DNA of 64,000 nucleotides from Ruegeria denitrificans. GTDB taxonomy: Bacteria > Pseudomonadota > Alphaproteobacteria > Rhodobacterales > Rhodobacteraceae. A program made the position numbers and the translations under genes. Shown here one piece after another: positions 12,745-51,947 of the stretch. Position 1 is the first letter of the stretch. Each line of letters begins with the position of its first letter. The notes beneath the pieces are model-generated. The model saw nothing but the letters and a program-made list of their open reading frames with translations. It ran no database searches and was not told the DNA's origin. The stretch is taken from positions 310,001 to 374,000 of the forward strand of contig NZ_CYUD01000001.1 in the NCBI RefSeq assembly GCF_001458295.1. The letters run 5' to 3'.

Positions 12745-15700
12745 TTACGCCGCACCTCCCAACAGGGCGGCGTTGCCACCGGCGGCTGTGGTATCGACGC
12801 AGACGTGATGCTCACCCAGAACCCGTGCCCTGTCGGGTCGACCGGGGATCAGCGGCAGGATCGGGCCATCGCGGCGGGCCAGATGGCGTTCGATCTCGCG
12901 TGCGGTTTCGTCGTCGCCCCACCACAGAACCCCGGAGAAGCCGGTGATGTTTTCCAGCCTGTGTAGGTCCATCATGCCGGTCGACAGGATTGCAGTGCCA
13001 CCCAGTGCCACAACTGCTTCGGCCTGCGCTTGCGCGGCTTCGGGCCCTGGTCCCATGCACAACAAGGGCGCGCGGGGGATTTCACTCAGCCGATTGGATT
13101 CGCCGGTCGGGCCGGGTAGGGACTGGGTGCGAATGGCAGCAGGTTTGCCTTGCGGCTCGGGAAACTCGCTCATGGTGCTACTCCAACCCGCGGCGCTGTA
13201 TTGGCGATCCGGCGCACAGAAACGTGTCATATAGTTTGGACCACCTGCCTTGGGCCCCGTGCCCGACAAACCTTCGCCGCCAAAAGGCTGAGAGCCTACG
13301 ATCGCTCCGATCTGGTTGCGGTTGACATAGATGTTGCCCGCGTGAACAGCCTCGGTGATATGCTGCACCCGGTCGTCGATGCGGGTGTGCAGGCCAAAGG
13401 TCAGCCCGTAGCCCGTGGCATTGATATCGGCGATGACCTGATCAATCTCAGCAGCCTTGAACCGCACGACATGCAGGACCGGGCCAAACACTTCACGCTC
13501 CAGTGCGCTGATACCGGGGATTTCGATCAGGGTCGGGGCGATGAATGTCCCTTCGGGCGGTGTGCTCAGTTCCTTCAGCACCCGACCTTCCGCGCGTGCT
13601 TGTCCAATGTGATCCGCAATGCCCTGCAGCGCGCCGTGATCAATCACCGGTCCGCAGTCGGTCGACAAAAGCCAGGGGTCGCCGATCTGCAAAGCCTTTA
13701 TCGCGCCGGTCAGCATGGTCAGCAAATCGTCGGCGATATCCTCTTGCACGTAAAGGCACCGCAGGGCCGAGCATCGCTGCCCTGCAGATTGAAAGGCGCT
13801 TTCAATGATGGATTGCACGGCCTGTTCGGGCAGGGCGGTGCTGTCAACGATCATGGCATTCAGCCCGCCGGTTTCCGCGATCAAAGGCGTGCCCGGTTTC
13901 AGGTTTTCTGCCATGGCCGCGCGGATTTTCTGCGCGGTGGCGGTCGATCCGGTGAAAGCTACCCCCGACACGCGTGGGTCCGAGGTCAGCGCCGCCCCGA
14001 CAGACGGTCCGCCGGGCAACAGTTGCAGCACATCGCGTGGTACCCCAGCCTCGTGCAGCAATTGCACTGCCCGGTGCGCGACCAATGGCGTTTGCGGCGC
14101 GGGTTTCGCCAGAACGGCGTTACCGGTGGCCAGAGCTGCAGAAATCTGTCCGGTGAATATCGCCAGTGGAAAGTTCCACGGGCTAATGCAGGTGAACGTG
14201 CCCGCCGGATTAGCGGCCGGAATGTTTGCCGCGTAATAGCGCAGAAAATCGACCGCTTCGCGCAGTTCGGCCACCGCATCGGGGATGGATTTTCCTGCTT
14301 CACGGGCCAGCAGGGCGAAAAGCTCGCCATAATGGGCTTCGTACAGATCAGCCGCCGCGTTCAATATCTGCGCGCGTTGCGCAGCCGGAGCATTCCACGA
14401 GGATGCCGAGGCCAAAGCAAGTTCGACATCCTGAGCGCTGGCCGGGGCGACTGCGCCCGGATGGTCTTGTGGATGCGCCGGATTGGTGACGGGTTCGTCA
14501 GTGTCGGGGTGCGCGTCGTCGGACAACAGCGGCTGCGCGTACCAGTGATGAGCGCGAAACGCATCGCGAGCGGCATCAATCCGGTCAAGCGTCGGCGTAT
14601 GTTGCAGATCGAACCCTTTAGAATTTGGGCGTTCGGGTTGAAACATTTCGGGCCCGGTTGGCAGCGGCGGCTTGGGCTCTTGAATACTGTCAAATGGGTC
14701 CGAGGCGACCTCCTCGGGCGGGACATTTTCATCAACGATCTGGTTCACGAAGGAGGAGTTCGCGCCATTCTCAAGCAGGCGCCGAACCAGATAGGCCAGA
14801 AGATCGCGATGCGCCCCGACCGGAGCGTAAATCCGGCAGCGCGTGTTGCTTTGATCCCGAACGATCTGGTGCAGAGTTTCACCCATTCCGTGCAGGCGCT
14901 GAAACTCGAAGGGTTGCGTGTCGGCCATATTCAGGATTGCGCTAACCGTATGGGCGTTGTGGGTTGCGAATTGCGGGTAAATCCGGTCGGTCATGTCCAG
15001 CAGCTTGCGGGCGTTGGAGATGTACGAGATATCGGTCGCGTCCTTGCGCGTGAATACTGGGAACCCGTCGACACCTTCGACCTGCGCGCGCTTGACCTCG
15101 GTATCCCAATAGGCCCCCTTAACCAGTCGGACCATCAGCTTGCGGTCGTGGCGTTCGGCCATTTCATAGAGCGTGTCCAGCACGATCCCGGCGCGTGGGC
15201 CATAAGCTTGAACCACGATGCCGAAACCGTCCCAACCGGCCAGCGCGGGTTCGGCCATCACCGCCTCGATCACCTGCAGGGACAGCGAGAGCCGGTCGGC
15301 TTCTTCGGCGTCAACGTTCAGGCCCATGCCAGCGGCTTTGGCCAACAGGCACAGGGCGCGCAGGCGGGGAACAAGCTCTTCCATCACGCGGCGTTCCTGC
15401 GCCAGTTCATAGCGCGGGTGCAGGGCTGATAGCTTCACCGATATCCCGGGGTTGGCGCGGATATCATCATGAGTGCAGGCATCGGCGATGGCCGCGATGG
15501 CACGTGAATAGGACAGGTGATAGCGGGCGGCGTCAGCCTCGGTGCGCGCCGCCTCGCCCAGCATGTCGTAAGAATAGGTGTAGCCTTTTGCCTCCATCCC
15601 GGCGGCACGGTCCATGGCGGAATGGATGGTCTCGCCCAGAACAAATTGACGGCCCATTTCTTTCATCGCACGACCCACGGCGGTGCGGATCACCGGCTCT

Positions 15701-16146
15701 CCCAATCGCTTGATGGCCCCGCGCAGGGCTCCGACGGGTGACGCTTTGCCTTCGTCCAGAACCTTGCCGGTCAGCATCAACGCCCAAGTTGACGCATTCA
15801 CCAGCGAGGATGAGGACTGCCCCAGATGTTTGCCCCAATCCGACGGCGCGATCTTGTCCTCGATCAGTGCGTCGATGGTATCGGCATCCGGGACACGCAG
15901 CAGCGCTTCGGCTAAACACATCAGCGCGATGCCTTCGTCGGTGGACAGGCCGTATTCGGCCAAAAACACCTCCATCATGCCGGGCGAAGTGCTGGACCGG
16001 ATGTCACGCACCAATTGCGCCGCGGCTGCACAGATCGCTGTGCGGTCGATCTGGGACAGGCCGGCCTGTTCGATCAGGTTATCCAGAATTGCGGATTGAT
16101 CGGCATAGGTCTGGCCGTCGATAAGGGTGCGCAGGCTGTGTGTCAT
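12745..16146 (-). CDS. putA: Bifunctional proline dehydrogenase / glutamate-semialdehyde dehydrogenase
   Basis: PutA oxidises proline to glutamate in two steps at the inner face of the membrane. The product is 1133 residues. An N-terminal helical arm leads to the FAD-binding proline dehydrogenase barrel (about 165-470: ISVKLSALHPRYE, GLNVDAEEADRL, LVKGAYWDTEVKRAQ, FATHNAHT, RLLENGANSSF). The aldehyde dehydrogenase follows (about 500-980: CISPWNFPLAIFTGQ, AFTGST, AETGGLNAMIVD, catalytic cysteine near residue 792 in SAGQRCSALR). About 130 extra C-terminal residues match longer PutA types. No ribbon-helix-helix DNA-binding domain is present at the N-terminus, so PutA is not its own repressor; the divergent Lrp-type gene takes that role. 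Confidence 0.95.
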   Translation of the reverse strand: MTHSLRTLIDGQTYADQSAILDNLIEQAGLSQIDRTAICAAAAQLVRDIRSSTSPGMMEVFLAEYGLSTDEGIALMCLAEALLRVPDADTIDALIEDKIAPSDWGKHLGQSSSSLVNASTWALMLTGKVLDEGKASPVGALRGAIKRLGEPVIRTAVGRAMKEMGRQFVLGETIHSAMDRAAGMEAKGYTYSYDMLGEAARTEADAARYHLSYSRAIAAIADACTHDDIRANPGISVKLSALHPRYELAQERRVMEELVPRLRALCLLAKAAGMGLNVDAEEADRLSLSLQVIEAVMAEPALAGWDGFGIVVQAYGPRAGIVLDTLYEMAERHDRKLMVRLVKGAYWDTEVKRAQVEGVDGFPVFTRKDATDISYISNARKLLDMTDRIYPQFATHNAHTVSAILNMADTQPFEFQRLHGMGETLHQIVRDQSNTRCRIYAPVGAHRDLLAYLVRRLLENGANSSFVNQIVDENVPPEEVASDPFDSIQEPKPPLPTGPEMFQPERPNSKGFDLQHTPTLDRIDAARDAFRAHHWYAQPLLSDDAHPDTDEPVTNPAHPQDHPGAVAPASAQDVELALASASSWNAPAAQRAQILNAAADLYEAHYGELFALLAREAGKSIPDAVAELREAVDFLRYYAANIPAANPAGTFTCISPWNFPLAIFTGQISAALATGNAVLAKPAPQTPLVAHRAVQLLHEAGVPRDVLQLLPGGPSVGAALTSDPRVSGVAFTGSTATAQKIRAAMAENLKPGTPLIAETGGLNAMIVDSTALPEQAVQSIIESAFQSAGQRCSALRCLYVQEDIADDLLTMLTGAIKALQIGDPWLLSTDCGPVIDHGALQGIADHIGQARAEGRVLKELSTPPEGTFIAPTLIEIPGISALEREVFGPVLHVVRFKAAEIDQVIADINATGYGLTFGLHTRIDDRVQHITEAVHAGNIYVNRNQIGAIVGSQPFGGEGLSGTGPKAGGPNYMTRFCAPDRQYSAAGWSSTMSEFPEPQGKPAAIRTQSLPGPTGESNRLSEIPRAPLLCMGPGPEAAQAQAEAVVALGGTAILSTGMMDLHRLENITGFSGVLWWGDDETAREIERHLARRDGPILPLIPGRPDRARVLGEHHVCVDTTAAGGNAALLGGAA

Positions 16147-17376: not shown

Positions 17377-19266
17377 TTAACCGACCAGACCATTATCGGT
17401 GCGCTTGATCGCAATGACCGATGATCTTGGCGTACCCCCATCGGGCCAGTTGCTGCCCGGATGCTGGATGCCAACAAACATGGTGCGCAGGTCGGTGGAC
17501 CAGGCCAGACCGGTGACCTCACAGCCATTAGGACCGGTCATGAACCGCGCGATCTCGCCGGTCACCGAATCCCCAACCAGCATTTGGTTGTTGCCGTTGC
17601 CAGCAAAATCACCCTCGTTATTGTCCTTACCGTCTGTCTGAATCCAGATCAGGCCGGTCGAGTCGATGACCATTCCATCGGGTGAATTGAACAGGTTGCC
17701 CTCATTTATATTTGGCGAACCCGCGCGGTCATCGGAATGCACTGTCGGATTGCCCGCCATAACGTACAGATCCCAGTCGAACGCCTCGGCGGCATGGTCG
17801 TCATTCGCCGGACGCCAGCGCACGATCTGACCGTATTTGTTTGCCTCACGTGGGTTGGCGGCGTTGATCGGAGTGTCATCACCGCCGGCATTCGGCTTGA
17901 CGCCGCGGTTTTTGTTGTTGGTCAGGCAGCAATAGGCTTCGACCGCAACTGGGCTCGACGCTACCCATTCGGGGCGATCCATGGTGGTGCCGCCAGCAGC
18001 AGAAGCCGCCATGCGGGTAAAGATCCGGATTTCAGGATCATCCATACCGGTGGTTTCCGGTGTCAGGGGCAGCCATTCGCCAGTTGCGTCTTCGCCGAAC
18101 TTGGCAACGTAAAGCGTGCCGTCATTCAATAGGCTCTCGGTCTCAGCCCCCGGTTGGTAGGTGCCGTTCGAAACGAACTTGTACAGATACTCGCCACGCT
18201 CATCATCGCCCATATAGACAACCACGCGACCATCTGCGGCCAGCGTCACCTCGGCGTTTTCGTGTTTGAAGCGGCCCAGACCGGTGTGTTTGATCGGTGT
18301 GCTGTCCGGCTTGGTCGGGTCGACTTCCACAATCCAACCCGCGCGGTGCGGCTCATTGGGGTTTTTCGAGGTGTCAAAGCGTGGGTCGAACAGCTCATAC
18401 CCGTTCCAGCTTTCGGCTTTGACGCCATAGCGATTGAAGCCGTCGGCGACCTTCTGGTCGTAGCTGGCGTTTTCGTCAGACGATCCGAAATAGCCGTTAA
18501 AGTTTTCTTCGCAGGTCAGGTAGGTACCCCAAGGCGTCTTGCCCGCACCGCAATTGTTCATAGTACCCAGCGAGGTCGTGCCGGTTGGATCAGCTTCGGT
18601 CTTCAGCAGGTCATGACCCGCTGCAGGACCGACGAACTTCATGGGCGTGTTATGGTGGACGCGGCGGTTGAAAGGACTGTCTTTGATAACCGACCAGCCG
18701 TTGGGGGTTTCGGTGATTTCCATCACGGTCACACCCTGTATGTTCTGCAACTTCAGAACGTCGTCCACGTTGGCGGGCACGCCCTCCTGGGCAGCAGGCA
18801 AGTTGATCTTGCGGTTTGGGTATTCGTGGTTGATCGCGATCAGTTCGTGACCCTGAAACGAGAAGGTCTCCATCCCGTCGGTGTTCTCGCCAAAGACACG
18901 ATCCGATTTCTGAACCGGGCCACCGTCAGTCAGGTCGTACCCATCGGCGTCAGAAAACAGCGGATCGCCCCAGCGCATCAGCGTCTTCCATTCGTACCCT
19001 TCCGGCACGTGAACGGTGCCATCGGTCTGGGCGGCAATCGGAGTAAAGGCGAAGCGGGAAGCAGTGACAGCGTGGGCAGCAGTCGACCCCATCAGGCCCG
19101 CGCCCATGGCCGCTGCGCCTGAACCAAACGCCAGAACGCCACCCAGGAAACCACGGCGCGAGATGGCGCGTTCAACCACGCGGTCAAAATCATTTTCTTC
19201 GGGGCGGGGGAAATGCAGCTCATCCCAGTCATCGGCGGACAGGGTGGTGGGATCAACATCTTTCAT
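17377..19266 (-). CDS. phoX: PhoX-family alkaline phosphatase, Tat-exported
   Basis: PhoX releases phosphate from phosphomonoesters outside the cytoplasm using Ca2+ and Fe. The product is 629 residues. A twin-arginine signal (SRRGFLGGVLAFGSGAAAMG, arginines near 37-38) precedes the DUF839/PhoX beta-propeller domain. Motifs seen include NHEYPN, NCGAGKTPWGTYLTCEENFNGYFG, GRFKHENAEV and AYCCLTNN. Marine roseobacters commonly use PhoX as their main phosphatase. A sequence matching a Pho box lies 55 bases upstream, so induction by phosphate starvation through PhoB is likely. An AGGAG site precedes the ATG. Some DUF839 proteins are not proven phosphatases, so the substrate is inferred. Confidence 0.85.
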   Translation of the reverse strand: MKDVDPTTLSADDWDELHFPRPEENDFDRVVERAISRRGFLGGVLAFGSGAAAMGAGLMGSTAAHAVTASRFAFTPIAAQTDGTVHVPEGYEWKTLMRWGDPLFSDADGYDLTDGGPVQKSDRVFGENTDGMETFSFQGHELIAINHEYPNRKINLPAAQEGVPANVDDVLKLQNIQGVTVMEITETPNGWSVIKDSPFNRRVHHNTPMKFVGPAAGHDLLKTEADPTGTTSLGTMNNCGAGKTPWGTYLTCEENFNGYFGSSDENASYDQKVADGFNRYGVKAESWNGYELFDPRFDTSKNPNEPHRAGWIVEVDPTKPDSTPIKHTGLGRFKHENAEVTLAADGRVVVYMGDDERGEYLYKFVSNGTYQPGAETESLLNDGTLYVAKFGEDATGEWLPLTPETTGMDDPEIRIFTRMAASAAGGTTMDRPEWVASSPVAVEAYCCLTNNKNRGVKPNAGGDDTPINAANPREANKYGQIVRWRPANDDHAAEAFDWDLYVMAGNPTVHSDDRAGSPNINEGNLFNSPDGMVIDSTGLIWIQTDGKDNNEGDFAGNGNNQMLVGDSVTGEIARFMTGPNGCEVTGLAWSTDLRTMFVGIQHPGSNWPDGGTPRSSVIAIKRTDNGLVG

Positions 19267-29534: not shown

Positions 29535-29609
<75 letters not shown>

Positions 29610-44272: not shown

Positions 44273-44941
44273 TTATCCGACCCAGTTCACGATCTCACTC
44301 AGATCGGCGCGGTCGGTGCGAAAGCCGTTGGCTGGGTGATCTGTATCCGCATAACCGAAAGAAATCGCGCATAAAATCAACCGATCTTCGGGGATATCGA
44401 AATACCTGCGCAAGAACGGGCTATAGGTGGCCAGTGCAGCCTGCGGGATCGTGGCGATGCCAAGTGCCTGCGCAGCCAGTGAAAAGGCGGTGATAAACCC
44501 GCCGCAATCCAGCGCGCCATAAGCGCCAAGTTCGGTGGGGCTTGAGACAATGGCGCAATGGGGTGCCCCGAACAAAGAGAAATTCTGTATCATCTGCTGG
44601 GTCGAGGCGCTGCGGTCACCGCGTTTAACGCCGACTGCTTGATACAGAGCCCACCCGCAGGCCCGGCGGCGGTCCTGATAAACGCCGGAATAGGAAGTTG
44701 GAAATGGAATGTCCGGGCAGGGCGTGCCCGCAGCAGCCTCGGCCTGCATTGCCGCGCGAAACCGCTCGGTTTCTGCGCCGCTGGTGACCGAGACGTGCCA
44801 GGGTTGAGCGTTGCACCAGCTGGGCACGCGGGCGGCGCTGGTCAGGATTTGTTCGATCTGATCCTTGGGCACCGGGTTGGGGCGAAAGGCCCGGCAGGAA
44901 TACCGCGAGGCCAGCAACCGATTTAGATCGGATAGTGTCAC
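44273..44941 (-). CDS. Nitroreductase family protein
   Basis: The product is 222 residues of the FMN-dependent nitroreductase fold. The N-terminal [12 protein letters not shown] and [14 protein letters not shown] are the FMN-binding motifs, and [14 protein letters not shown] and the C-terminal SFGYAD are also typical. It reduces nitroaromatics or other electron-poor compounds with NAD(P)H; the natural substrate is unknown. The start is GTG 44941 with a GGGGAGAGG site upstream. It follows the SPFH/TelA operon on the same strand after 103 bases, but I see no reason to join it to that operon. Confidence 0.85.
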
Positions 44942-45044: not shown

Positions 45045-46133
45045 TCACTGTTGGCCGGTGGCCATCAGATACCCGACGCCGGCCGCCACAAGCAGGCCCA
45101 GAACAACGGCAACAGTGATCTTGATGGCGGACCAGGGGCGTTCTCCCTGTACGCGGCCGGTGCGCCCGTTAACGACGAAGCGATAGGTCTGGCCACGGTA
45201 CTTATAGGCCGCCATCCAGACCGGTAGCAGGATATGTTTGAAGGTAACGTCTCGCACATCCGTATCGATCCCGTGTATCCGCTGACGATCGCCGCCAATA
45301 TCAAAGCGCACTTCACGTTCGATCACTCGCGCTATGTACCCACGGGCCTCGGAGTAGCCTTCCTGCAATTCAACGGTATAGGCCTCGGCCCTGAATCCGG
45401 CCAGATATTCCGGCTGATAAGGTTCCAGCGATGGTAAGTCCCAAGGCTCCAGCGCGTCAGTATAGCTTTTGGGCAAAGACTGTGATGCCAACACCAGCAC
45501 GTCGTCGAAGAACCGCGCGACCTGTCCGGATTTTGGCGACCACCGCACCTTTGGCACCTGCTGCTGTACGCGCTTGCCGTCGCGCATGACGGTCCGGGTC
45601 TCGTAATAGACAACGCCCCGCTCACCGCGATAACTGGACTTAGTGTCCGCATCAAAGGTCCAGTAGGGCACATAAATGCCCTGCATCTTGCGGCCTTTGC
45701 GGGCGTATTCCTTTAACCCGTTGGGCGCGAACCAGAGACGACCCAGCCAGTCTCCCATTGCCTTGTGCGCCGTGCGTTCGTCCAAAGCAAAGGGCAGCAC
45801 ACCGCGCGGTTTGATATGCCGACTAACGCCGGTATCCGTTACCACGGGCGTCGCGCAGAACGGGCATTCTGCGGCGTGGGTCGCAGGATCGAACTCGACC
45901 TGAGCTGCGCAATTGGGGCAGGACAGAACACGCGTTTCCTCGATCTCGCTCTCCGGAAGTTGTTCCGCGATTGCAGCGTCGAAATCCAGCTCTTTCAGGC
46001 TGGCCCCGCCCCATGGACCAGCACCAATCGTCACGGAATGCCCGCAATGGTCGCAGGTCAGACTGCCATCACCGGGGTTGAACCGGTAATCCGCGCCACA
46101 TTGCTCGCAGGGAAATCTGTGTTCTTCACTCAT
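45045..46133 (-). CDS. Double zinc-ribbon protein with a C-terminal membrane anchor
   Basis: The product is 362 residues. Two four-cysteine zinc ribbons are at the N-terminus: C9, C12, C27, C30, and C72, C75, C90, C93. A long soluble middle part (about 100-330) contains IKPRGVLPFALDERTA and YVPYWTFDADTKSSYRGERG. One hydrophobic helix near residues 338-358 anchors the C-terminus. Such proteins are often named after replication factor Y or TFIIB zinc ribbons, but there is no helicase here. In Bacillus subtilis, YdjG (zinc ribbon plus membrane) sits with the SPFH protein YdjI and membrane-stress PspA-like YdjF; this gene occupies an equivalent place beside an SPFH gene. Function: probable membrane complex component, inferred. 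Confidence 0.72.
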   Translation of the reverse strand: MSEEHRFPCEQCGADYRFNPGDGSLTCDHCGHSVTIGAGPWGGASLKELDFDAAIAEQLPESEIEETRVLSCPNCAAQVEFDPATHAAECPFCATPVVTDTGVSRHIKPRGVLPFALDERTAHKAMGDWLGRLWFAPNGLKEYARKGRKMQGIYVPYWTFDADTKSSYRGERGVVYYETRTVMRDGKRVQQQVPKVRWSPKSGQVARFFDDVLVLASQSLPKSYTDALEPWDLPSLEPYQPEYLAGFRAEAYTVELQEGYSEARGYIARVIEREVRFDIGGDRQRIHGIDTDVRDVTFKHILLPVWMAAYKYRGQTYRFVVNGRTGRVQGERPWSAIKITVAVVLGLLVAAGVGYLMATGQQ

Positions 46134-46164
46134 CGTGCAGCCCTATGCGCCAGCGACTAAAACG

Positions 46165-47313
46165 TTACGCACCCGGCGGCGGTGGCGGCAGAATGGTGAA
46201 CAGCTGCGCCAATTCCTGCACGTCTCCAGCCTTTTTCCAACCATCCTGACCCGCAGTCCAAACGTGGGTGTCGCGGGTGATTTCTCCGTCGGTGGCCATG
46301 CGACCCATTTTGGCCTTCGAGAACGGCCCGCTGGTTTGCCCGTCCACCGCGATATGCCACACATGCTCGACCGGAGGCGGAGGGGGCGGTGCGGCATGCG
46401 CTGCCGGTTGCGGTGCGGCGGGGGCGGAACCGCCCCACGGGCCACTGGGTTGACCCGCTGCCATGTTCGACATCTGCTGTGCCATCGCCATGCCCATTCC
46501 CATGCCAAGCCCCGCGCCCATGCCGCCGCCCTGACCGGGATTGTTGGCCGCGGCGGTCATCGCCTCGGCCGCGGAATACTGGGTGAACTTACCCAGATCA
46601 CCCGCCAACCCCATCGAGGTCCGCTTGTCCAACGCTGCTTCAACTGCGGGCGGTAGAGAGATGTTTTCAATGTAGAATTCTGGCATCTCAAGTCCGTAAC
46701 CGTCCAGCACCGGAGAAACTTCAGCCGCGATCAGCTTGCCCAAATCGGCTGTGTTGGCGGCCATGTCCAGAACTGGAATGCCTGATCCGGCGATCACCCG
46801 GCTAAATTCCTGCACGATGATGTTGCGGATCTGAAAGCTGATCTCATCCATTGTGAATTCACCATCGGTGCCCACGATCTCGATCAGGAACTTCGCAGCG
46901 TCCTTCACGCGCACCGTATAGGTGCCGAAGGCCCGAATGCGGGTTGGTCCGAATTCCGGATCACGTAGCATGATCGGGTTTTTGGTGCCCCACTTCAGGT
47001 CATTGAACCGGGTCGTGTTAACGAAATAGATCTCGGACTTGAACGGAGACTGAAAGCCGTGATCCCAATGCTGCAGAGTCGTCATGATCGGCATGTTGTT
47101 GGTCTCAAGCATATAGAGACCTGGCGTGAACACATCCGCCAGCTGACCTTCGTGCACAAATACCGCCGCCTGACCCTCGCGCACGGTCAGCTTGGCGCCG
47201 TATTTGATCTCGTGCCCCTCACGCTCGAACCGCCAGACCATTGTGTCGCGGGTGTCGTCGACCCAGTGAATGACGTCGATAAATTCTCCGGTCAGAAAAT
47301 CGAAAATACCCAT
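46165..47313 (-). CDS. SPFH-domain protein with C-terminal GYF_2 domain (YdjI-like)
   Basis: The product is 382 residues. The SPFH/band-7 type region covers about 35-245 (LTVREGQAAVFVHEGQLADVFTPGLYMLETNN, RIRAFGTYTVRVKD). It is followed by a coiled or flexible Gly/Met-rich linker (about 258-285), a proline/alanine stretch, and a GYF_2 domain near 316-375 (VWHIAVDGQTSGPFSKAKMGRMATDGEITRDTHVWTAGQDGW). SPFH proteins form large rings or domains on membranes; GYF_2 domains bind proline-rich peptides or help oligomerise. The protein has no transmembrane helix. It lies between DUF2927 and zinc-ribbon genes in a co-directional operon. Names such as virion core protein come from weak matches and are misleading. 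Confidence 0.82.
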   Translation of the reverse strand: MGIFDFLTGEFIDVIHWVDDTRDTMVWRFEREGHEIKYGAKLTVREGQAAVFVHEGQLADVFTPGLYMLETNNMPIMTTLQHWDHGFQSPFKSEIYFVNTTRFNDLKWGTKNPIMLRDPEFGPTRIRAFGTYTVRVKDAAKFLIEIVGTDGEFTMDEISFQIRNIIVQEFSRVIAGSGIPVLDMAANTADLGKLIAAEVSPVLDGYGLEMPEFYIENISLPPAVEAALDKRTSMGLAGDLGKFTQYSAAEAMTAAANNPGQGGGMGAGLGMGMGMAMAQQMSNMAAGQPSGPWGGSAPAAPQPAAHAAPPPPPPVEHVWHIAVDGQTSGPFSKAKMGRMATDGEITRDTHVWTAGQDGWKKAGDVQELAQLFTILPPPPPGA

Positions 47314-47334
47314 TGGGGTCTCCTTTCCTTGGGC

Positions 47335-48330
47335 TCAGAGCTGCTGGCCCATCAATTCGCGTGCAATGATCCGCACCACAGGGCGGGCGTCTTCAGCTGT
47401 TACCCCGGGCTCAAGGCGTGGATCGTAGAGCATTGTCAAAAGTTTTTCGTCATGGCTGGTCAGCAGCGCAAACTCATCATTGTCGTTGAAAATCGAAGGC
47501 CGTGCGTTGGGGCTGTCGTTGGATAGACCCAGCCCCTGTGCGATTTCCTCGTGAATGCAGCTGCGGCGCGTCAGGTCCGGCAATTCAGCCCGGATGAGCG
47601 TCACGGCCCGCACAAATTTATACGGCGAGCTTTTGGTAGGGGACGCAAAGACAAGGCAGTCAATATTGGCACGCGGATTTGCAACTAATTCCAGTGATGG
47701 CGTGCTGATGCCGGGGATCAGTTGTTTCAAGCGTTTCACTACATAAGCGCTGTCATCCTTGCCTGCGAAGAAGACATGGAAATTGGCTTTGCGATTGACG
47801 ACCGAGATCGGATGATCCGTCAATTTGCCAAGTCGCTTTGCAAATGCCTCAACCTCGGCCGTGTCTTTTTCGCGCGCTTCGGGTGCGACGGACGGGGCGA
47901 ATTCCGTTTGAATTCGTACAGGCCCGGCCCATCGGCTAAGTTGTCCGTCCGTTCGCTGAATACGCGTTGTTACAGCGTGATCAGGGTATTCGCTGTAAAA
48001 GGCTATGGCCTCGAAATTGCGGGCCAGATCGTCGGCGTCATAGGGTGTATCCGGGCCGCCCCCATCAATGCGCAACATGTCGCGGGTCAGCAGGTCGCGT
48101 TCGACCCGCTGATAGAACCTGGCCAAGTCCTGACTGGCTGCGGATGGGGGCACATAGGCATTGGGTGCAGGGGCGGGCGCCACCGGGCGCGGTTGCGGAA
48201 CAACCGAAGACGTCAATGCTTCATCGCAATTGGCCAAAACCAAAAGTGCCATCAAGCCCAATAATGGCTTCAGATATCCCGCTACCCGCACGTCTGGCCC
48301 GCCGTCAGCCCGGTACCGCCGTTCCGGCAT
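47335..48330 (-). CDS. DUF2927 protein, probably exported
   Basis: From ATG 48330 the product is 331 residues. A hydrophobic segment (LKPLLGLMALLVLANC, about residues 20-35) looks like a signal peptide, possibly a lipoprotein signal although the -1 Asn before Cys is unusual. A proline-rich spacer follows, then the DUF2927 domain, including HVFFAGKDD, CLVFAS and RSCIHEEIAQGLGLSNDS, where HEEIAQGLG resembles a metallopeptidase-like HE motif. The frame is open to 48447, but that part lies inside telA; ATG 48330 overlaps it by only 26 bases. The function is unknown. It is in the middle of the XpaC/TelA/SPFH operon, so it may be the periplasmic part of that module. Confidence 0.7.
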   Translation of the reverse strand: MPERRYRADGGPDVRVAGYLKPLLGLMALLVLANCDEALTSSVVPQPRPVAPAPAPNAYVPPSAASQDLARFYQRVERDLLTRDMLRIDGGGPDTPYDADDLARNFEAIAFYSEYPDHAVTTRIQRTDGQLSRWAGPVRIQTEFAPSVAPEAREKDTAEVEAFAKRLGKLTDHPISVVNRKANFHVFFAGKDDSAYVVKRLKQLIPGISTPSLELVANPRANIDCLVFASPTKSSPYKFVRAVTLIRAELPDLTRRSCIHEEIAQGLGLSNDSPNARPSIFNDNDEFALLTSHDEKLLTMLYDPRLEPGVTAEDARPVVRIIARELMGQQL

Positions 48331-49495
48331 TGTCGCCGATCCCGTCCTTGCGGGCCTTGGCCGCGGCCAAGGTGTCGCGCAGTTCGGTCTCCATCTTCTG
48401 CAGTTCCTGCTCGGCAGCGGCGCGTTTGGCCTTACCTTCGTCAGCAATCGCCAGACTTTCGTTGATTGTACCGATCAGATCGGCATTGGCTTGTTTGACC
48501 GCCTCGATATCGAACACGCCGCGTTCCATTTCCTCGCGGATCATCTTGTTCGACTCACGCAGGTTAGCCGCGTTCGAGGTCAGCAATTCATTGGTCAGAT
48601 CGTTGGCATCGCGTACGGCCGAGGCCGCTTCGGCGCTGCGTTGAATGGTGACCGCCTGCGCCAGCTGGGTTTCCCACAGCGGCACGGTATTGACCAGGGT
48701 CGAGTTGATCTTGGTGACCAGCGACTTGTCATTCTCCTGCACCAAGCGGATCGAGGGCAGCGACTGCATCGTCACCTGCCGCGTCAGCTTCAGGTCATGC
48801 ACACGGCGTTCCAAATCATCCCGTGCGGCACGCATATCGCGCAGTTCCTGTGCTTTCATCACCTGTTCATCTTCGGGCGCGGCCTGAACTTCGGCCTCTT
48901 TTTGGGGGATGTCCTGACTGTCCAGTTCGGTCAGCTTTTCTTCACCTGCCGCGATATACAGCGCCAGCTCGTCGTAGAACCCAAGAGTCTTTTCATACAG
49001 CAGATCCAGCGACTTGATGTCTTTCAGCAGCGTGTGTTCATGACCCAGAAGATCGTCCGTGATCTTGTCGATCTGGCCCTGAACCTCTTCGTATTGCGCT
49101 GTGAACTTGGCGAAAGGCGCGGCCTTGCCCAGCAGTTTTTCCCACCAGCTGCGTTCGCGGCGCACATCTAATTCGCTGACCGAAAAGCCCCGGATCGAGG
49201 TGACGATATCGCGCAGGCTGTCCCCCGCGGGACCCACATCCTTGTTGCGTACATCCGCCAGCATGGCCTGGCTGATTTCCTGCAATTCCGCCTGGGCGGA
49301 CGAGCCGAAGGACACGATCGAATTGGTGTTGCCCATATCCAGCTCATCCATGCGGTTGCGGATTTCAGCGCTGACCGGATCGTCGGCCTCTTCAAGCGAG
49401 ATGACCTGATTTGTGGGTTCAGGCAACGCAACGGCTGTTACTTCCTGTACCAGCGTTTCTGCTTCGACCGCTTTGTTCTTGATCTCATCGGACAT
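48305..49495 (-). CDS. TelA/toxic-anion-resistance family protein
   Basis: The product is 396 residues from ATG 49495, with GAGAGGA upstream. It is mostly alpha-helical and coiled-coil: long charged stretches with LMAQ/L-repeat spacing, for example GPAGDSLRDIVTSIRGFSVSELDVRRERSWWEKLLG, YEEVQGQIDKITDDLLGHEHTLLKDI, and MRAARDDLERRVHDLKLTRQVTMQSLPSIRLVQ. These match the TelA family, whose members accompany tellurite and other stress operons but whose mechanism is not known. No membrane helix is seen. It partners with the XpaC-family gene 30 bases upstream, a combination conserved widely. Confidence 0.85.
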   Translation of the reverse strand: MSDEIKNKAVEAETLVQEVTAVALPEPTNQVISLEEADDPVSAEIRNRMDELDMGNTNSIVSFGSSAQAELQEISQAMLADVRNKDVGPAGDSLRDIVTSIRGFSVSELDVRRERSWWEKLLGKAAPFAKFTAQYEEVQGQIDKITDDLLGHEHTLLKDIKSLDLLYEKTLGFYDELALYIAAGEEKLTELDSQDIPQKEAEVQAAPEDEQVMKAQELRDMRAARDDLERRVHDLKLTRQVTMQSLPSIRLVQENDKSLVTKINSTLVNTVPLWETQLAQAVTIQRSAEAASAVRDANDLTNELLTSNAANLRESNKMIREEMERGVFDIEAVKQANADLIGTINESLAIADEGKAKRAAAEQELQKMETELRDTLAAAKARKDGIGDNAGTAVPG

Positions 49496-49525
49496 GGGGT
49501 AATCCTCTCTCAAAAAATGGGCCGG

Positions 49526-50440
49526 TTAGTCCAACCGGACGCCTTCGCGCTGCAGCCGTTCGCGCAACACGTCAATTTCAACCGTCAGATCGCTGCGGTC
49601 ATCCAATAGCATCTTGCGGGTGCGAGCCGCGAAATTCTGTTCCAGATCGTCCAGCAGAGCCGAATAGTCGGTCAGGGCCTGCGCATCGCGGGTTCGGGCG
49701 TAGACATCGGCAAACTTCACCGTCGCGTCACGGGCACCCTGCAGATAGACGGTCAGGTATTTGCGGGCGCCGGCCAGATCACGCGGGTCTTCCTCGACCG
49801 TGCGAAACAGATCGCGGGCGGTTTCCTGAAACCGTTCGACGCGCGCCTCGATCCGGCGGTCGCCTGCACGTTTTATAGCATCGGTCATCTCTGTCAGATG
49901 GGTTTCGGCATCTTCAACCACACGGGCCACGCGGTCTTGCTGAAAGGTGTCGACCCCCTCCATGCCCTTGTCTTTCATCGGGTCCAGACCGAAGGACACG
50001 GAATGCAGGACCGTTGCCACCACCCCGAACAGGATCGGGGCCAGCAGGCCGGCCTGAGCAGCAGTTTCGGCATCCAGGTATTCCGTCCGGTACGCGGCCA
50101 CAGCGACACCAATACCGGTCAACACGCTTGCGAAAATCTTGCGTGGAAAGGCCGGGCGTCGCGCGGTGCGACGTGCGTTAAATTCGGCCTCGGCGCGCAA
50201 ACCTTCGCGCAACAGAAAGGCAGCGGCGGTCAGCAGGCCAGCGGCGATCAGCCCGATCGTCATGCCGACTGCACCGTCGTTTAGCGACAGAAACACCAGG
50301 GGAATGGCAGGCAGAAAAAGGATATTGGCCCGTGCGCCCGCCGGTTCGACGCGTGCGCCATGAAATTGTCCGCGCTGCGGTTGGTCGTCGTCAGAGCCGC
50401 CGCCTTCGGGGCTGAATTTTCCGCCATACCGCTTAGCCAT
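49526..50440 (-). CDS. XpaC-family membrane protein (5-bromo-4-chloroindolyl phosphate hydrolysis family)
   Basis: The product is 304 residues. Two adjacent hydrophobic helices occupy about residues 38-77 (ILFLPAIPLVFLSL, MTIGLIAAGLLTAAAFLL) and another segment lies near 130-155. The C-terminal half (about 165-304) is a cytosolic helical coil typical of XpaC (DRVARVVEDAETHLTEMTDAI, DYSALLDDLEQNFAARTRKMLLDDRSDLTVEIDVLRERLQREGV). XpaC genes occur almost always with telA. Despite the old name, no phosphatase motif is visible. It probably anchors the TelA coil at the membrane; this is inference. Confidence 0.82.
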   Translation of the reverse strand: MAKRYGGKFSPEGGGSDDDQPQRGQFHGARVEPAGARANILFLPAIPLVFLSLNDGAVGMTIGLIAAGLLTAAAFLLREGLRAEAEFNARRTARRPAFPRKIFASVLTGIGVAVAAYRTEYLDAETAAQAGLLAPILFGVVATVLHSVSFGLDPMKDKGMEGVDTFQQDRVARVVEDAETHLTEMTDAIKRAGDRRIEARVERFQETARDLFRTVEEDPRDLAGARKYLTVYLQGARDATVKFADVYARTRDAQALTDYSALLDDLEQNFAARTRKMLLDDRSDLTVEIDVLRERLQREGVRLD

Positions 50441-50443
50441 GCG

Positions 50444-50533
50444 CTATAGTCCCCCCAGCACACCGGTACAGACACCGAGCATCAGCACAAGAAGGGCCGC
50501 ATAGGCCAGTTTTTGCACTCCGGTCCCTGACAT
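50444..50533 (-). CDS. 29-residue single-helix membrane peptide
   Basis: A short open frame on the minus strand starts with ATG 50533 and ends with TAG 3 bases before the xpaC start. It begins MSGTGVQKLAYAALLVLML and continues GVCTGVLGGL, forming one hydrophobic helix with a charged lysine near the N-terminus. A GGGGGA stretch lies upstream at a plausible distance for ribosome binding. It would be the first gene of the XpaC/TelA/SPFH operon. Too short for a family call; the intact frame, the helix and the spacing are the support. Confidence 0.5.
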   Translation of the reverse strand: MSGTGVQKLAYAALLVLMLGVCTGVLGGL

Positions 50534-50614: not shown

Positions 50615-51424
50615 TCACTTGCGAGGTTTCTTGCCGATCGGTGGCCGTTTTCTTTGCGGACGGGCAGGGCGTTTGGGTTTGGCGTCAGGTTCGCCGTCCA
50701 ACCCCAACTGGTCCCGCATCACGCGGCGGCGGATCTCTTCAACCTCGCCGGGCTTCAGATTGCCCAGCTGGAAAGGGCCGTAAGACACCCGCAGCAGGCG
50801 GTTCACGGCATAGCCGATATCCTCTATCGCGCGGCGAATCTCGCGGTTTTTACCTTCGCGCAGGCCAATGGTCAGCCACGCATTTGCGCCTTGCTGACGG
50901 TCCAGCGACACGTCCATCGGCAGGAAACGCTCTCCGTCGATCACAAGCCCTTTGCGCAGCGGCGCAAAATCTTCGTCCTTCGGCCGCCCATTCACCCGAA
51001 CGCGGTATTTGCGCAGCCAACCAGTCGAAGGCAGTTCCAGCTTGCGTTTGATGCCGCCATCATTGGTCAGCAACAGTAACCCTTCCGAGTTCAGGTCCAG
51101 CCGTCCAACGCTCATGACGCGGGGCATGTCTTCGGGCAGGTTGTCGAAAATGGTGGCGCGGCCTTTTTCGTCGCGCGTTGTCGTCACCAGGCCGGACGGC
51201 TTGTGATACAGCCACAGGCGCGAGGGTTCAGGTTCCGACACCGGTTTGCCGTCGACGACGATCTTGTCTTTGGCGGTCACGTTCAGGGCCGGGCTGTCGA
51301 TGACCTTGCCATTCACGGCCACTCGGCCTGCTTCGATCATACGTTCAGCTTCACGGCGCGAGGCAACGCCTGCGCGGGCAAGAACTTTGGCGATCCGGTC
51401 GCCGGGAGGAGGGGTTTTGGTCAT
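50615..51424 (-). CDS. rluB: Pseudouridine synthase (RluB/RsuA family)
   Basis: The product is 269 residues from ATG 51424. An S4 RNA-binding domain (about 10-70: DRIAKVLARAGVASRREAERMIEAGRVAVNGKV) precedes the catalytic domain with the active-site aspartate in SVGRLDLNSEGLLLLTNDGG and the motif GKNREIRRAIEDIGYAVNRLLRVSYGPFQLG. A lysine/arginine-rich tail (KPKRPARPQRKRPPIGKKPRK) ends it. It modifies 23S (RluB/E) or 16S (RsuA) rRNA; length and tail favour RluB. ATG 51442 is an alternative start; both lack a strong ribosome site. It is divergent from tadA. Confidence 0.87.
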   Translation of the reverse strand: MTKTPPPGDRIAKVLARAGVASRREAERMIEAGRVAVNGKVIDSPALNVTAKDKIVVDGKPVSEPEPSRLWLYHKPSGLVTTTRDEKGRATIFDNLPEDMPRVMSVGRLDLNSEGLLLLTNDGGIKRKLELPSTGWLRKYRVRVNGRPKDEDFAPLRKGLVIDGERFLPMDVSLDRQQGANAWLTIGLREGKNREIRRAIEDIGYAVNRLLRVSYGPFQLGNLKPGEVEEIRRRVMRDQLGLDGEPDAKPKRPARPQRKRPPIGKKPRK

Positions 51425-51485
51425 CCGCAGCCCATAGCGCATCCCGCCCGCTTGCGAAAGACAGGTTTCTGATGCAGTCAGAGGC

Positions 51486-51947
51486 ATGACGTTCAAATCA
51501 CATATGGACAAGGCGCTGGTCGAGGCGCGCGCTGCCGCAGATCGCGGAGAGGTTCCGGTGGGCGCCGTGATCGTCGCACCCGACGGCCGGATCGTGGCCT
51601 CAGCAGGCAACCGGACGCGCGAGTTGAACGACCCCACCGCCCATGCCGAGATCTTGGCCCTGCGCGTGGCCTGCGCCGGGGTTCGGTCAGAACGGCTGCC
51701 GGACCATGACCTTTACGTCACGCTGGAACCCTGCGCGATGTGCGCGGCGGCTTTGGCCGCGGCGCGCATCCGGCGTATATACTATGGGGCCGCCGATCCG
51801 AAATCGGGCGGCGTGGCCCATGGTGCGCGGGTTTTCACCCATAAACAGGCGCACCATGTCCCCGAAATTTACGACGGCATCGCTGCACAAGAGGCCGCCG
51901 ATCTTCTGAAAGCCTTCTTCGCTGCACGCCGTGATTTTAAAGAGTGA
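51486..51947 (+). CDS. tadA: tRNA-specific adenosine deaminase
   Basis: TadA converts adenosine 34 of tRNA-Arg(ACG) to inosine, which lets one tRNA read three arginine codons. The product is 153 residues. The zinc and catalytic residues are present: HAE (H53, E55) and PCAMC (C83, C86). EVPVGAVIV and RIYYGAADPKSG are also typical. It uses the ATG at 51486 and overlaps the convergent UPF0173 gene by 11 bases at the stop ends. Confidence 0.92.
   Translation: MTFKSHMDKALVEARAAADRGEVPVGAVIVAPDGRIVASAGNRTRELNDPTAHAEILALRVACAGVRSERLPDHDLYVTLEPCAMCAAALAAARIRRIYYGAADPKSGGVAHGARVFTHKQAHHVPEIYDGIAAQEAADLLKAFFAARRDFKE

Follow-up and report, generated by a model that had tools for sequence, protein, structure and literature searches.

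Does a tightly packed series of six genes in Ruegeria denitrificans encode one membrane system, or several that happen to be neighbors? The genes lie in a 64,000-nucleotide stretch of contig NZ_CYUD01000001.1 (positions 310,001 to 374,000; hereafter the window, whose genome we label G000), where they fill positions 45045-50533, all on the minus strand. From 5′ to 3′ they encode a 29-residue mini-protein, XpaC, TelA, a DUF2927 protein, an SPFH protein with a GYF2 domain (SPFH-GYF2) and a zinc-ribbon protein, and the successive junctions are a gap of 3 bases, a gap of 30, an overlap of 26 and gaps of 21 and 31. An initial annotation had described six genes on one strand with gaps of 3-31 bases or overlaps, and the coordinates, strand and Pfam families agree with that description. 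The operon proves to be nearly universal in the family sampled and modular beyond it, and it may serve as a single scaffold for maintaining the cell envelope.

The operon is no chance cluster, because the SPFH gene is present in 145 of the 149 genomes of our order sample and stands just downstream of telA in 141. Every genome in this sample is labeled as the same single family (the roseobacters and their relatives), and the Band_7_1 SPFH was counted at E ≤ 1e-30. TelA is present in 147 of the genomes, with a near-full-length match in 146. In the 141 genomes SPFH lies on the same strand as TelA and within 5 kb, at a spacing of 823-4089 bases that is too short to fit DUF2927 in four cases; the diverged TelA fragments of one genome, G085, were left out of this count. 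In three of the four exceptions the genes fall on separate contigs, and in the fourth they are 14 kb apart. That the genes form one linked unit, as first proposed, holds in this family. The complete series XpaC-TelA-DUF2927-SPFH-zinc ribbon was present in 16 of 20 regions extracted from the order sample, the others being L032 (zinc ribbon not in the region), L036 (no DUF2927), L050 and L051. The window TelA shares 95% identity with its Ruegeria arenilitoris counterpart (L113).

Co-loss is seen among the four genomes that lack SPFH, as G011 and G106 are also without TelA. G085 has no SPFH match and, between the pseudouridine-synthase and nitroreductase genes where the operon would stand, only a diverged TelA-like open reading frame (ORF) of 302 residues (L050, 9657-10565). 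The fourth, G081 (L051), retains XpaC-TelA-DUF2927 without a strong SPFH match. Short, diverged TelA-like proteins of about 302 residues also occur in G210 and G423.

Beyond the family, the unit is modular, a set of nested modules and not one fixed six-gene set. Our wider locus set comprises the best 80 of at least 578 stretches encoding an SPFH relative in an SPFH alignment scan; it is biased toward close SPFH relatives, many of its records are metagenome-assembled genomes (MAGs), and taxa are taken as named in the records. TelA is found in 67 of these 80 loci, and in 57 of the 65 with enough flanking sequence. Those 65 divide into 30 with XpaC-TelA-DUF2927-SPFH-zinc ribbon, 26 with XpaC-TelA-SPFH-zinc ribbon, seven with SPFH-zinc ribbon, one with SPFH alone and one missing only the zinc ribbon. 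The form without DUF2927 occurs in Gammaproteobacteria (Thiothrix, Granulosicoccus and others), Campylobacterota (Sulfurovum, Sulfurimonas) and a Geminicoccaceae MAG, and the SPFH-zinc ribbon pair or SPFH alone in Bacteroidota, Planctomycetota and Gemmatimonadota records and in two gammaproteobacteria (L098, L118).

We also looked for universality of the joined set outside the family, in an evenly spread phylum sample of 249 genomes with SPFH and TelA both counted at E ≤ 1e-20, and rejected it: none of the 17 non-alphaproteobacterial SPFH genomes has TelA beside SPFH. Three of the 17 do have TelA, never on the SPFH contig. Of 20 regions extracted for this check, 19 surround an SPFH gene (from 14 of the 17 non-alphaproteobacterial genomes and five alphaproteobacterial ones) and contain neither TelA nor XpaC. 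A zinc-ribbon partner stands beside SPFH in these regions with a strong match in 11 and a weak one in three; a different zinc-ribbon-like ORF was recognized by eye in four, and one region ends near a contig end. In the twentieth region, from G011, SPFH was not seen. Because the non-alphaproteobacterial regions mostly pair SPFH with a zinc ribbon and in no case contain TelA or XpaC, SPFH-zinc ribbon is the wider pair, which XpaC-TelA joins in part of the tree. Mini-protein-XpaC-TelA is joined to the SPFH pair in Rhodobacterales, in some other Alpha- and Gammaproteobacteria and in Campylobacterota.

DUF2927 has a distribution of its own. Within the best 80 loci it occurs in 33, every one a named member of the Rhodobacterales or Alphaproteobacteria. 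In a class sample of 289 genomes DUF2927 is present in 40 and TelA in 28, so DUF2927 also occurs apart from this system. Class genomes outside the family that have a strong SPFH match carry TelA adjoining it in five of nine cases. The initial annotation had treated the six genes as one set, and this does not stand: DUF2927 is an addition, and XpaC-TelA is separate from SPFH-zinc ribbon in the sampled non-alphaproteobacterial genomes. Scattering of the genes among relatives, which it had named as grounds for abandoning the idea, is thus found between these two modules there and is absent within the family.

The SPFH-GYF2 protein (382 residues, 46165..47313, minus strand) matches PF13421 at E 1.8e-101 and PF14237 at E 4.1e-22. 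Polyproline stands before its GYF2 domain and again at its C-terminus, where the window protein ends in PPPPPGA. Of 100 SPFH sequences, 96 have a PPP run in the last 18 residues and 93 have one in the linker, and the tail is kept in nine of 11 Campylobacterota loci, whose GC content is 29-45%. By comparison, the last 280 residues of TelA and XpaC contain PPP in 2 of 106 and 0 of 91 sequences. L143, which comes from the same genome as L032, was left out of these counts and of the hydropathy, mini-protein and distance-correlation counts below. Since GYF domains bind proline-rich stretches, the GYF2 domains may staple SPFH subunits to one another through their polyproline. The GYF2 domain resembles that of a gliding motility protein (7z3c, E 1.6e-05) and weakly matches the GltJ model NF033761 (23.6 bits, cut-off 450). 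GltJ carries a zinc ribbon and a GYF domain in one protein, whereas here the zinc ribbons and GYF2 are on two neighboring proteins; the likeness is in the GYF2 domain and implies no role in gliding.

The partner, a double zinc-ribbon protein (362 residues, 45045..46133, minus strand), matches PF11781 at E 1.6e-07. Its eight cysteines are invariant across 48 sequences that represent several phyla, and hydropathy of the window protein gives one C-terminal membrane segment, at residues 339-357. The body of the protein matches no Pfam family, and a PDB sequence search returned only chance-level matches. Small cytochrome b561-like membrane proteins lie between SPFH and the zinc ribbon, as judged by clustering, in L093, L100, L115, L120, L144, L146, L149 and L150; Pfam confirms this identity for L093 and not for the tested L115 copy. 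Similar ORFs occupy that position in some order-sample regions, and L049 has a CPCC protein there.

The mini-protein (MSGTGVQKLAYAALLVLMLGVCTGVLGGL; 50444..50533, minus strand), a putative single-pass membrane peptide, is the first gene of the operon, 3 bases 5′ of xpaC, and no Pfam or NCBIfam model matches it. Fourteen peptides from the family, chosen by a hydrophobicity filter that yielded no peptide in 25 of 93 loci, gave a profile that we ran against 37,690 small reading-frame segments from 92 loci including the window. This profile gave 44 matches at E < 0.01, all at the 5′ end of xpaC and 30 of them in loci outside the training set; the match in L109 lies about 0.66 kb upstream of xpaC with an ORF between. 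A second profile, from nine other loci, picked up nine more loci beyond its training set at E < 0.001, each time at the 5′ end of xpaC, and its next seven matches, down to E 0.2, are likewise placed. Among 19 aligned sequences the proportion of nonsynonymous differences (pN) is 0.24 and that of synonymous differences (pS) 0.61, with pN lower in 171 of 171 pairs. The matches in untrained loci and this purifying selection establish, at the level of sequence, that the peptide is a real gene. It is likely oriented with its N-terminus in and its C-terminus out, as basic residues precede its single membrane stretch and only a very short tail follows. In several loci outside the family (L080, L092, L106, L127, L139 and others) the mini-protein looks like a tiny lipoprotein, with a cysteine just past the membrane stretch and a longer tail.

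XpaC (304 residues, 49526..50440, minus strand) matches PF10112 at E 9.7e-29, with 101.1 bits against a curated cut-off of 29.8. Hydropathy makes its N-terminal half hydrophobic, with several membrane segments, and the C-terminal half is probably cytosolic. TelA (48305..49495, minus strand) matches PF05816 at E 6.8e-108 (361.1 bits, cut-off 30) and has no membrane segment by hydropathy; we take its start as the ATG at 49495, the listed ORF beginning at a TTG at 49513. Its predicted model consists of very long helices at residues 127-205, 208-324 and 330-384 (predicted local distance difference test score, pLDDT, 76; predicted TM-score, pTM, 0.55). We considered TelA as a look-alike of ESCRT-III or PspA and could not support the idea, the matches being to long helices only (ClyA-type alpha-pore-forming toxins, chemoreceptors, SMC arms), with a best Z of 12.3 that amounts to helical-bundle background. 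PspA is not among the structural matches listed, which does not count against a likeness; the model speaks neither for it nor against it. A PDB sequence search found no match for TelA or XpaC, and a TelA profile found weak matches to cytochrome b562. A second XpaC-like gene lies upstream of xpaC in L116, L117, L130 and L150, the L116 copy being below Pfam's reach. The two families are widespread, and we know of no established mechanism for them.

DUF2927 (47335..48330, minus strand; PF11150, E 8.1e-58) is the fastest-changing subunit, with a median distance of 0.515 over 40 loci as against 0.182 for TelA. Its likely start is the ATG at 48330, 26 bases inside telA, and the ORF listing begins at a TTG at 48447. 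An invariant cysteine follows a hydrophobic stretch in all 33 aligned sequences (Cys36 in the window, in a lipobox-like LANC), which makes the protein a probable lipoprotein, as far as the alignment alone allows the signal peptide to be judged. The initial annotation had placed the protein outside the cytoplasm; that is upheld, and "exported" can be refined to "lipoprotein."

The predicted fold of DUF2927 is that of a matrixin, the metzincin catalytic domain of matrix metalloproteinases (MMPs). All 50 structural matches listed for the model (pLDDT 83, pTM 0.78) are MMPs or the MMP-like karilysin, with MMP-type matches at Z 10.5-11.6 and the best being MMP-7 (8k4z; Z 11.6, root-mean-square deviation 2.9 over 151 residues). 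Foldseek returned MMPs and snapalysin weakly, with a best E of 1.4e-2 and none at 0.001. Sequence searches of the PDB gave only chance-level matches for DUF2927, and its profile likewise gave one. The 33 aligned sequences share a block C-x-H-E-E-x-x-Q-x-x-G-L. The metzincin consensus zinc motif is HExxHxxGxxH, and here the protein differs from MMPs: the corresponding site of the window, EEIAQGLGLSND, is degenerate, and all 33 sequences have EExxQxxG with Asp at place 12. The window protein thus falls in a branch without HExxH and is probably not an active zinc protease.

Other members of the family look different at this site. Among 20 DUF2927 ORFs from other places, ten have EExxQxxGxxND like the window, seven have HExxHxxGxxxH in the same columns and three have neither. 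A search for relatives with the exact metzincin motif found none. The last His of the seven is at place 12, where the window has Asp, and in metzincins it is at 11, so their motif is zincin-like and not the exact metzincin one. This suggests a zinc-peptidase-like family in which some branches look live and others dead. L165, L167, L168, L169 and L171, some of them clustered, encode such HExxHxxGxxxH proteins and would be possible active zinc peptidases. One genome, G306, has seven PF11150 matches. More than one match also occurs in G001-G003, and G000 itself has a second DUF2927 gene at C2:168235-168834 (L154), in a 469-residue frame with a similarly degenerate site, EEIAQALGPLND.

What might such an assembly do? 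The closest precedent is the Bacillus pspA-ydjGHI operon. In B. subtilis the SPFH protein YdjI and the membrane proteins YdjG and YdjH are reported to be needed to bring PspA to the membrane (available text of PMC8581546), and the accessible parts of three papers describe SPFH-dependent recruitment of PspA and a YdjG with zinc ribbons and a membrane segment (PMC8581546, PMC9239133, PMC11237479). In both operons a Band_7_1 SPFH and a zinc-ribbon membrane protein are joined by a partner that is helical and acts on membranes, and the PF13421 profile also matches a B. subtilis control genome. The parallel with YdjI and YdjG proposed at the outset is therefore borne out in the shared Pfam SPFH family and in the zinc-ribbon membrane partner, the likeness to YdjG resting on two zinc ribbons and a membrane segment. 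The differences are that the operon in the window has XpaC-TelA, a mini-protein and a lipoprotein in place of PspA and the TPM protein YdjH, and that its SPFH ends in GYF2 and polyproline, whereas the Bacillus SPFH is reported, in the portion of the literature available, to end in a zinc ribbon. PspA (PF04012) has no match in G000 or among the six operon proteins. The TPM domain has none among the eight window proteins that were scanned with Pfam (the six operon products and both flanking genes), the rest of the genome not having been searched for it.

A second line of evidence comes from xpaC-telA pairs in Gram-positive bacteria. The available text on Listeria reports that lmo1966-1967 (xpaC-telA) is mildly induced by a bacteriocin, with a log2 fold change of about 0.6, and names it as LiaSR-regulated (PMC12791056). 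In Lactococcus, an XpaC-like gene and telA1 (llmg_1115-1116) have values of 10.3 and 3.44 in a table of responses from a study of CesSR and the overproduction of membrane proteins, as far as its available text goes (PMC3139573). These operons have the same two families side by side under envelope-stress regulation, and the text on them in those portions mentions no SPFH, zinc ribbon, mini-protein or lipoprotein; the comparison is one of description (PMC12791056, PMC3139573).

Because of these responses and the Bacillus precedent, we propose that the operon encodes a single envelope-maintenance or envelope-stress scaffold on the inner membrane, working like PspA-YdjGHI with XpaC-TelA in place of PspA-YdjH, and we give this a probability of about 0.5. 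The linkage of TelA and SPFH in the family and in most of the best 80 loci, their co-loss, the conserved mini-protein, the polyproline of SPFH with its 7z3c-like GYF2 domain, and the matrixin-like fold of DUF2927 with its degenerate zinc site also count in its favor. XpaC and the mini-protein would form a seat in the membrane, on which TelA would dock from the cytosol. SPFH subunits would assemble beside the tail-anchored zinc-ribbon protein, their GYF2 domains gripping the polyproline tracts of neighboring subunits and knitting them together. On the outer face, the DUF2927 lipoprotein could bind a peptide or a protein and couple its state to the scaffold. On damage to the membrane or cell wall, the assembly may thicken and stabilize the membrane and keep partner machines in position, as PspA-YdjGHI largely does in Bacillus. 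We infer the recruitment order, the GYF2 stapling and the sensing by the lipoprotein.

Several observations weigh against this proposal. XpaC-TelA and SPFH-zinc ribbon are often apart: TelA does not adjoin SPFH in four of the nine class genomes outside the family that have a strong SPFH match, or in any of the 17 non-alphaproteobacterial SPFH genomes of the phylum sample, and DUF2927 occurs in many class-sample genomes without TelA. The TelA model is middling at a pTM of 0.55 and matches only generic helical bundles, and the cited xpaC-telA stress regulons come from Gram-positive bacteria (PMC12791056, PMC3139573). Distance correlations within the cassette are 0.64-0.74 over 40 loci, only modestly above the 0.55-0.66 found with the neighboring RluB. 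The four core proteins correlate at 0.91-0.95 over the whole locus set, probably driven by deep taxonomy, and with so small an excess over RluB on 40 equal loci we do not claim strict co-evolution (L106, with a split TelA, was left out of both sets). Finally, of 121 genomes from the order 40 carry PspA, and since all 40 also have TelA and SPFH, PspA and XpaC-TelA are not alternatives. The initial suggestion that XpaC-TelA replaces PspA survives for this operon and this genome, and fails as a general rule: it is no strict substitute.

The same data bear on other explanations. The mini-protein-XpaC-TelA and SPFH-zinc ribbon modules could be independent, each with a function of its own, and do no more than share a transcript in some lineages. 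In its favor, none of the 17 non-alphaproteobacterial SPFH genomes has TelA on the SPFH contig, TelA is not adjacent in four of nine class genomes outside the family, and G081 retains XpaC-TelA-DUF2927 although it has no strong match to SPFH. It sits poorly with the 141 of 145 family genomes in which SPFH comes just past TelA, and with the recurrence of the XpaC-TelA-SPFH-zinc ribbon order across classes and in Campylobacterota, and we regard it as unlikely. Membrane protein quality control, with SPFH enclosing or steering a protease or insertase, TelA and XpaC as adaptors and the zinc-ribbon protein as client receptor, is a little less likely again. HflKC, which encloses or steers FtsH, is a precedent from the SPFH family, and the lipoprotein of this lineage is protease-like. 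The Lactococcus xpaC-telA genes do respond to membrane-protein overproduction in the available text (PMC3139573). By profiles and Pfam, though, the recurrent genes include no protease and no insertase (not every neighbor being annotated), and the lipoprotein has no HExxH.

Resistance to the toxic oxyanion tellurite could instead be the true function, with TelA and XpaC limiting its uptake or the damage it does and the SPFH pair secondary. Rhodobacter sphaeroides belongs to the same order as the host of the operon. Its telA, the TelA of a related bacterium, is listed with trgABcysK among chromosomal tellurite resistance elements in the available part of a review (PMC6955997). A TerC-family gene lies directly upstream of xpaC in four of the best 80 loci by clustering (L087, L124, L135, L146; Pfam was checked for L135 only). 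None of the eight window proteins scanned is a TerC, and TerD was not sought among them. The available text on the Listeria lmo1967 mutant gives a 2-fold increase in sensitivity to tellurite and a 4-fold increase to nisin, the latter pointing to the envelope (PMC12791056). Near-universality in the family would also be odd for a response to a rare toxic ion, and we consider tellurite resistance as improbable as quality control. An anti-phage or conflict role is very improbable. GYF and zinc-ribbon proteins do occur in some conflict systems, according to the portion available of one paper (PMC7159879), but PADLOC-DB returned no families at E 0.1 for the five proteins scanned (all except the mini-protein), and the operon, near-universal, single-copy in nearly all genomes and constant in place within the family, is unlike a defense island.

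The surroundings of the operon are ordinary. Upstream lies an RsuA/RluB-type pseudouridine synthase gene (50615..51637, minus strand; Pfam and NCBIfam), a frequent neighbor in DUF2927-carrying loci, and downstream a nitroreductase family gene (44273..44941, minus strand; Pfam), a neighbor in part of those loci. A terminator-like hairpin with a T-run stands at the xpaC/telA junction (window 49522-49538); its stem is common to some close relatives, which mostly lack the T-run. As an attenuator it was rejected, a stem with a T-rich tail occurring in just eight of 93 loci, some of them weak or unrelated. Elsewhere the window encodes a PutA-type proline dehydrogenase/aldehyde dehydrogenase (12745-16146), a PhoX phosphatase (17377-19266) and tRNA-Gly (29535-29609).

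Each of the large families is already known; we came across no description of the combination, the mini-protein or the protease-like lipoprotein in the literature searched. The initial annotation knew of no account of the full set as one system, and we likewise found none in the open-licence literature searched, which yielded no papers on DUF2927. With the envelope-scaffold reading as a basis, a broader suggestion can be made, somewhat short of an even bet and therefore tentative. The operon may represent an unnamed envelope-guard machine of Proteobacteria and Campylobacterota, composed of a mini-protein of about 25-50 residues, XpaC, TelA, an SPFH polymer self-stapled through GYF2 and polyproline, and a tail-anchored double zinc-ribbon protein. 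Relatives of the roseobacters would have gained an outer-face sensor from a dead protease-like lipoprotein, and annotation would be missing an obligatory subunit, the mini-protein, that serves in assembly or gating. The operon, near-universal in a family that includes tractable marine members, ties TelA and XpaC to an SPFH scaffold. It also supplies candidate missing subunits, the mini-protein and the protease-like lipoprotein, and contacts that can be tested by point mutation in the GYF2 pocket and the polyproline tail.

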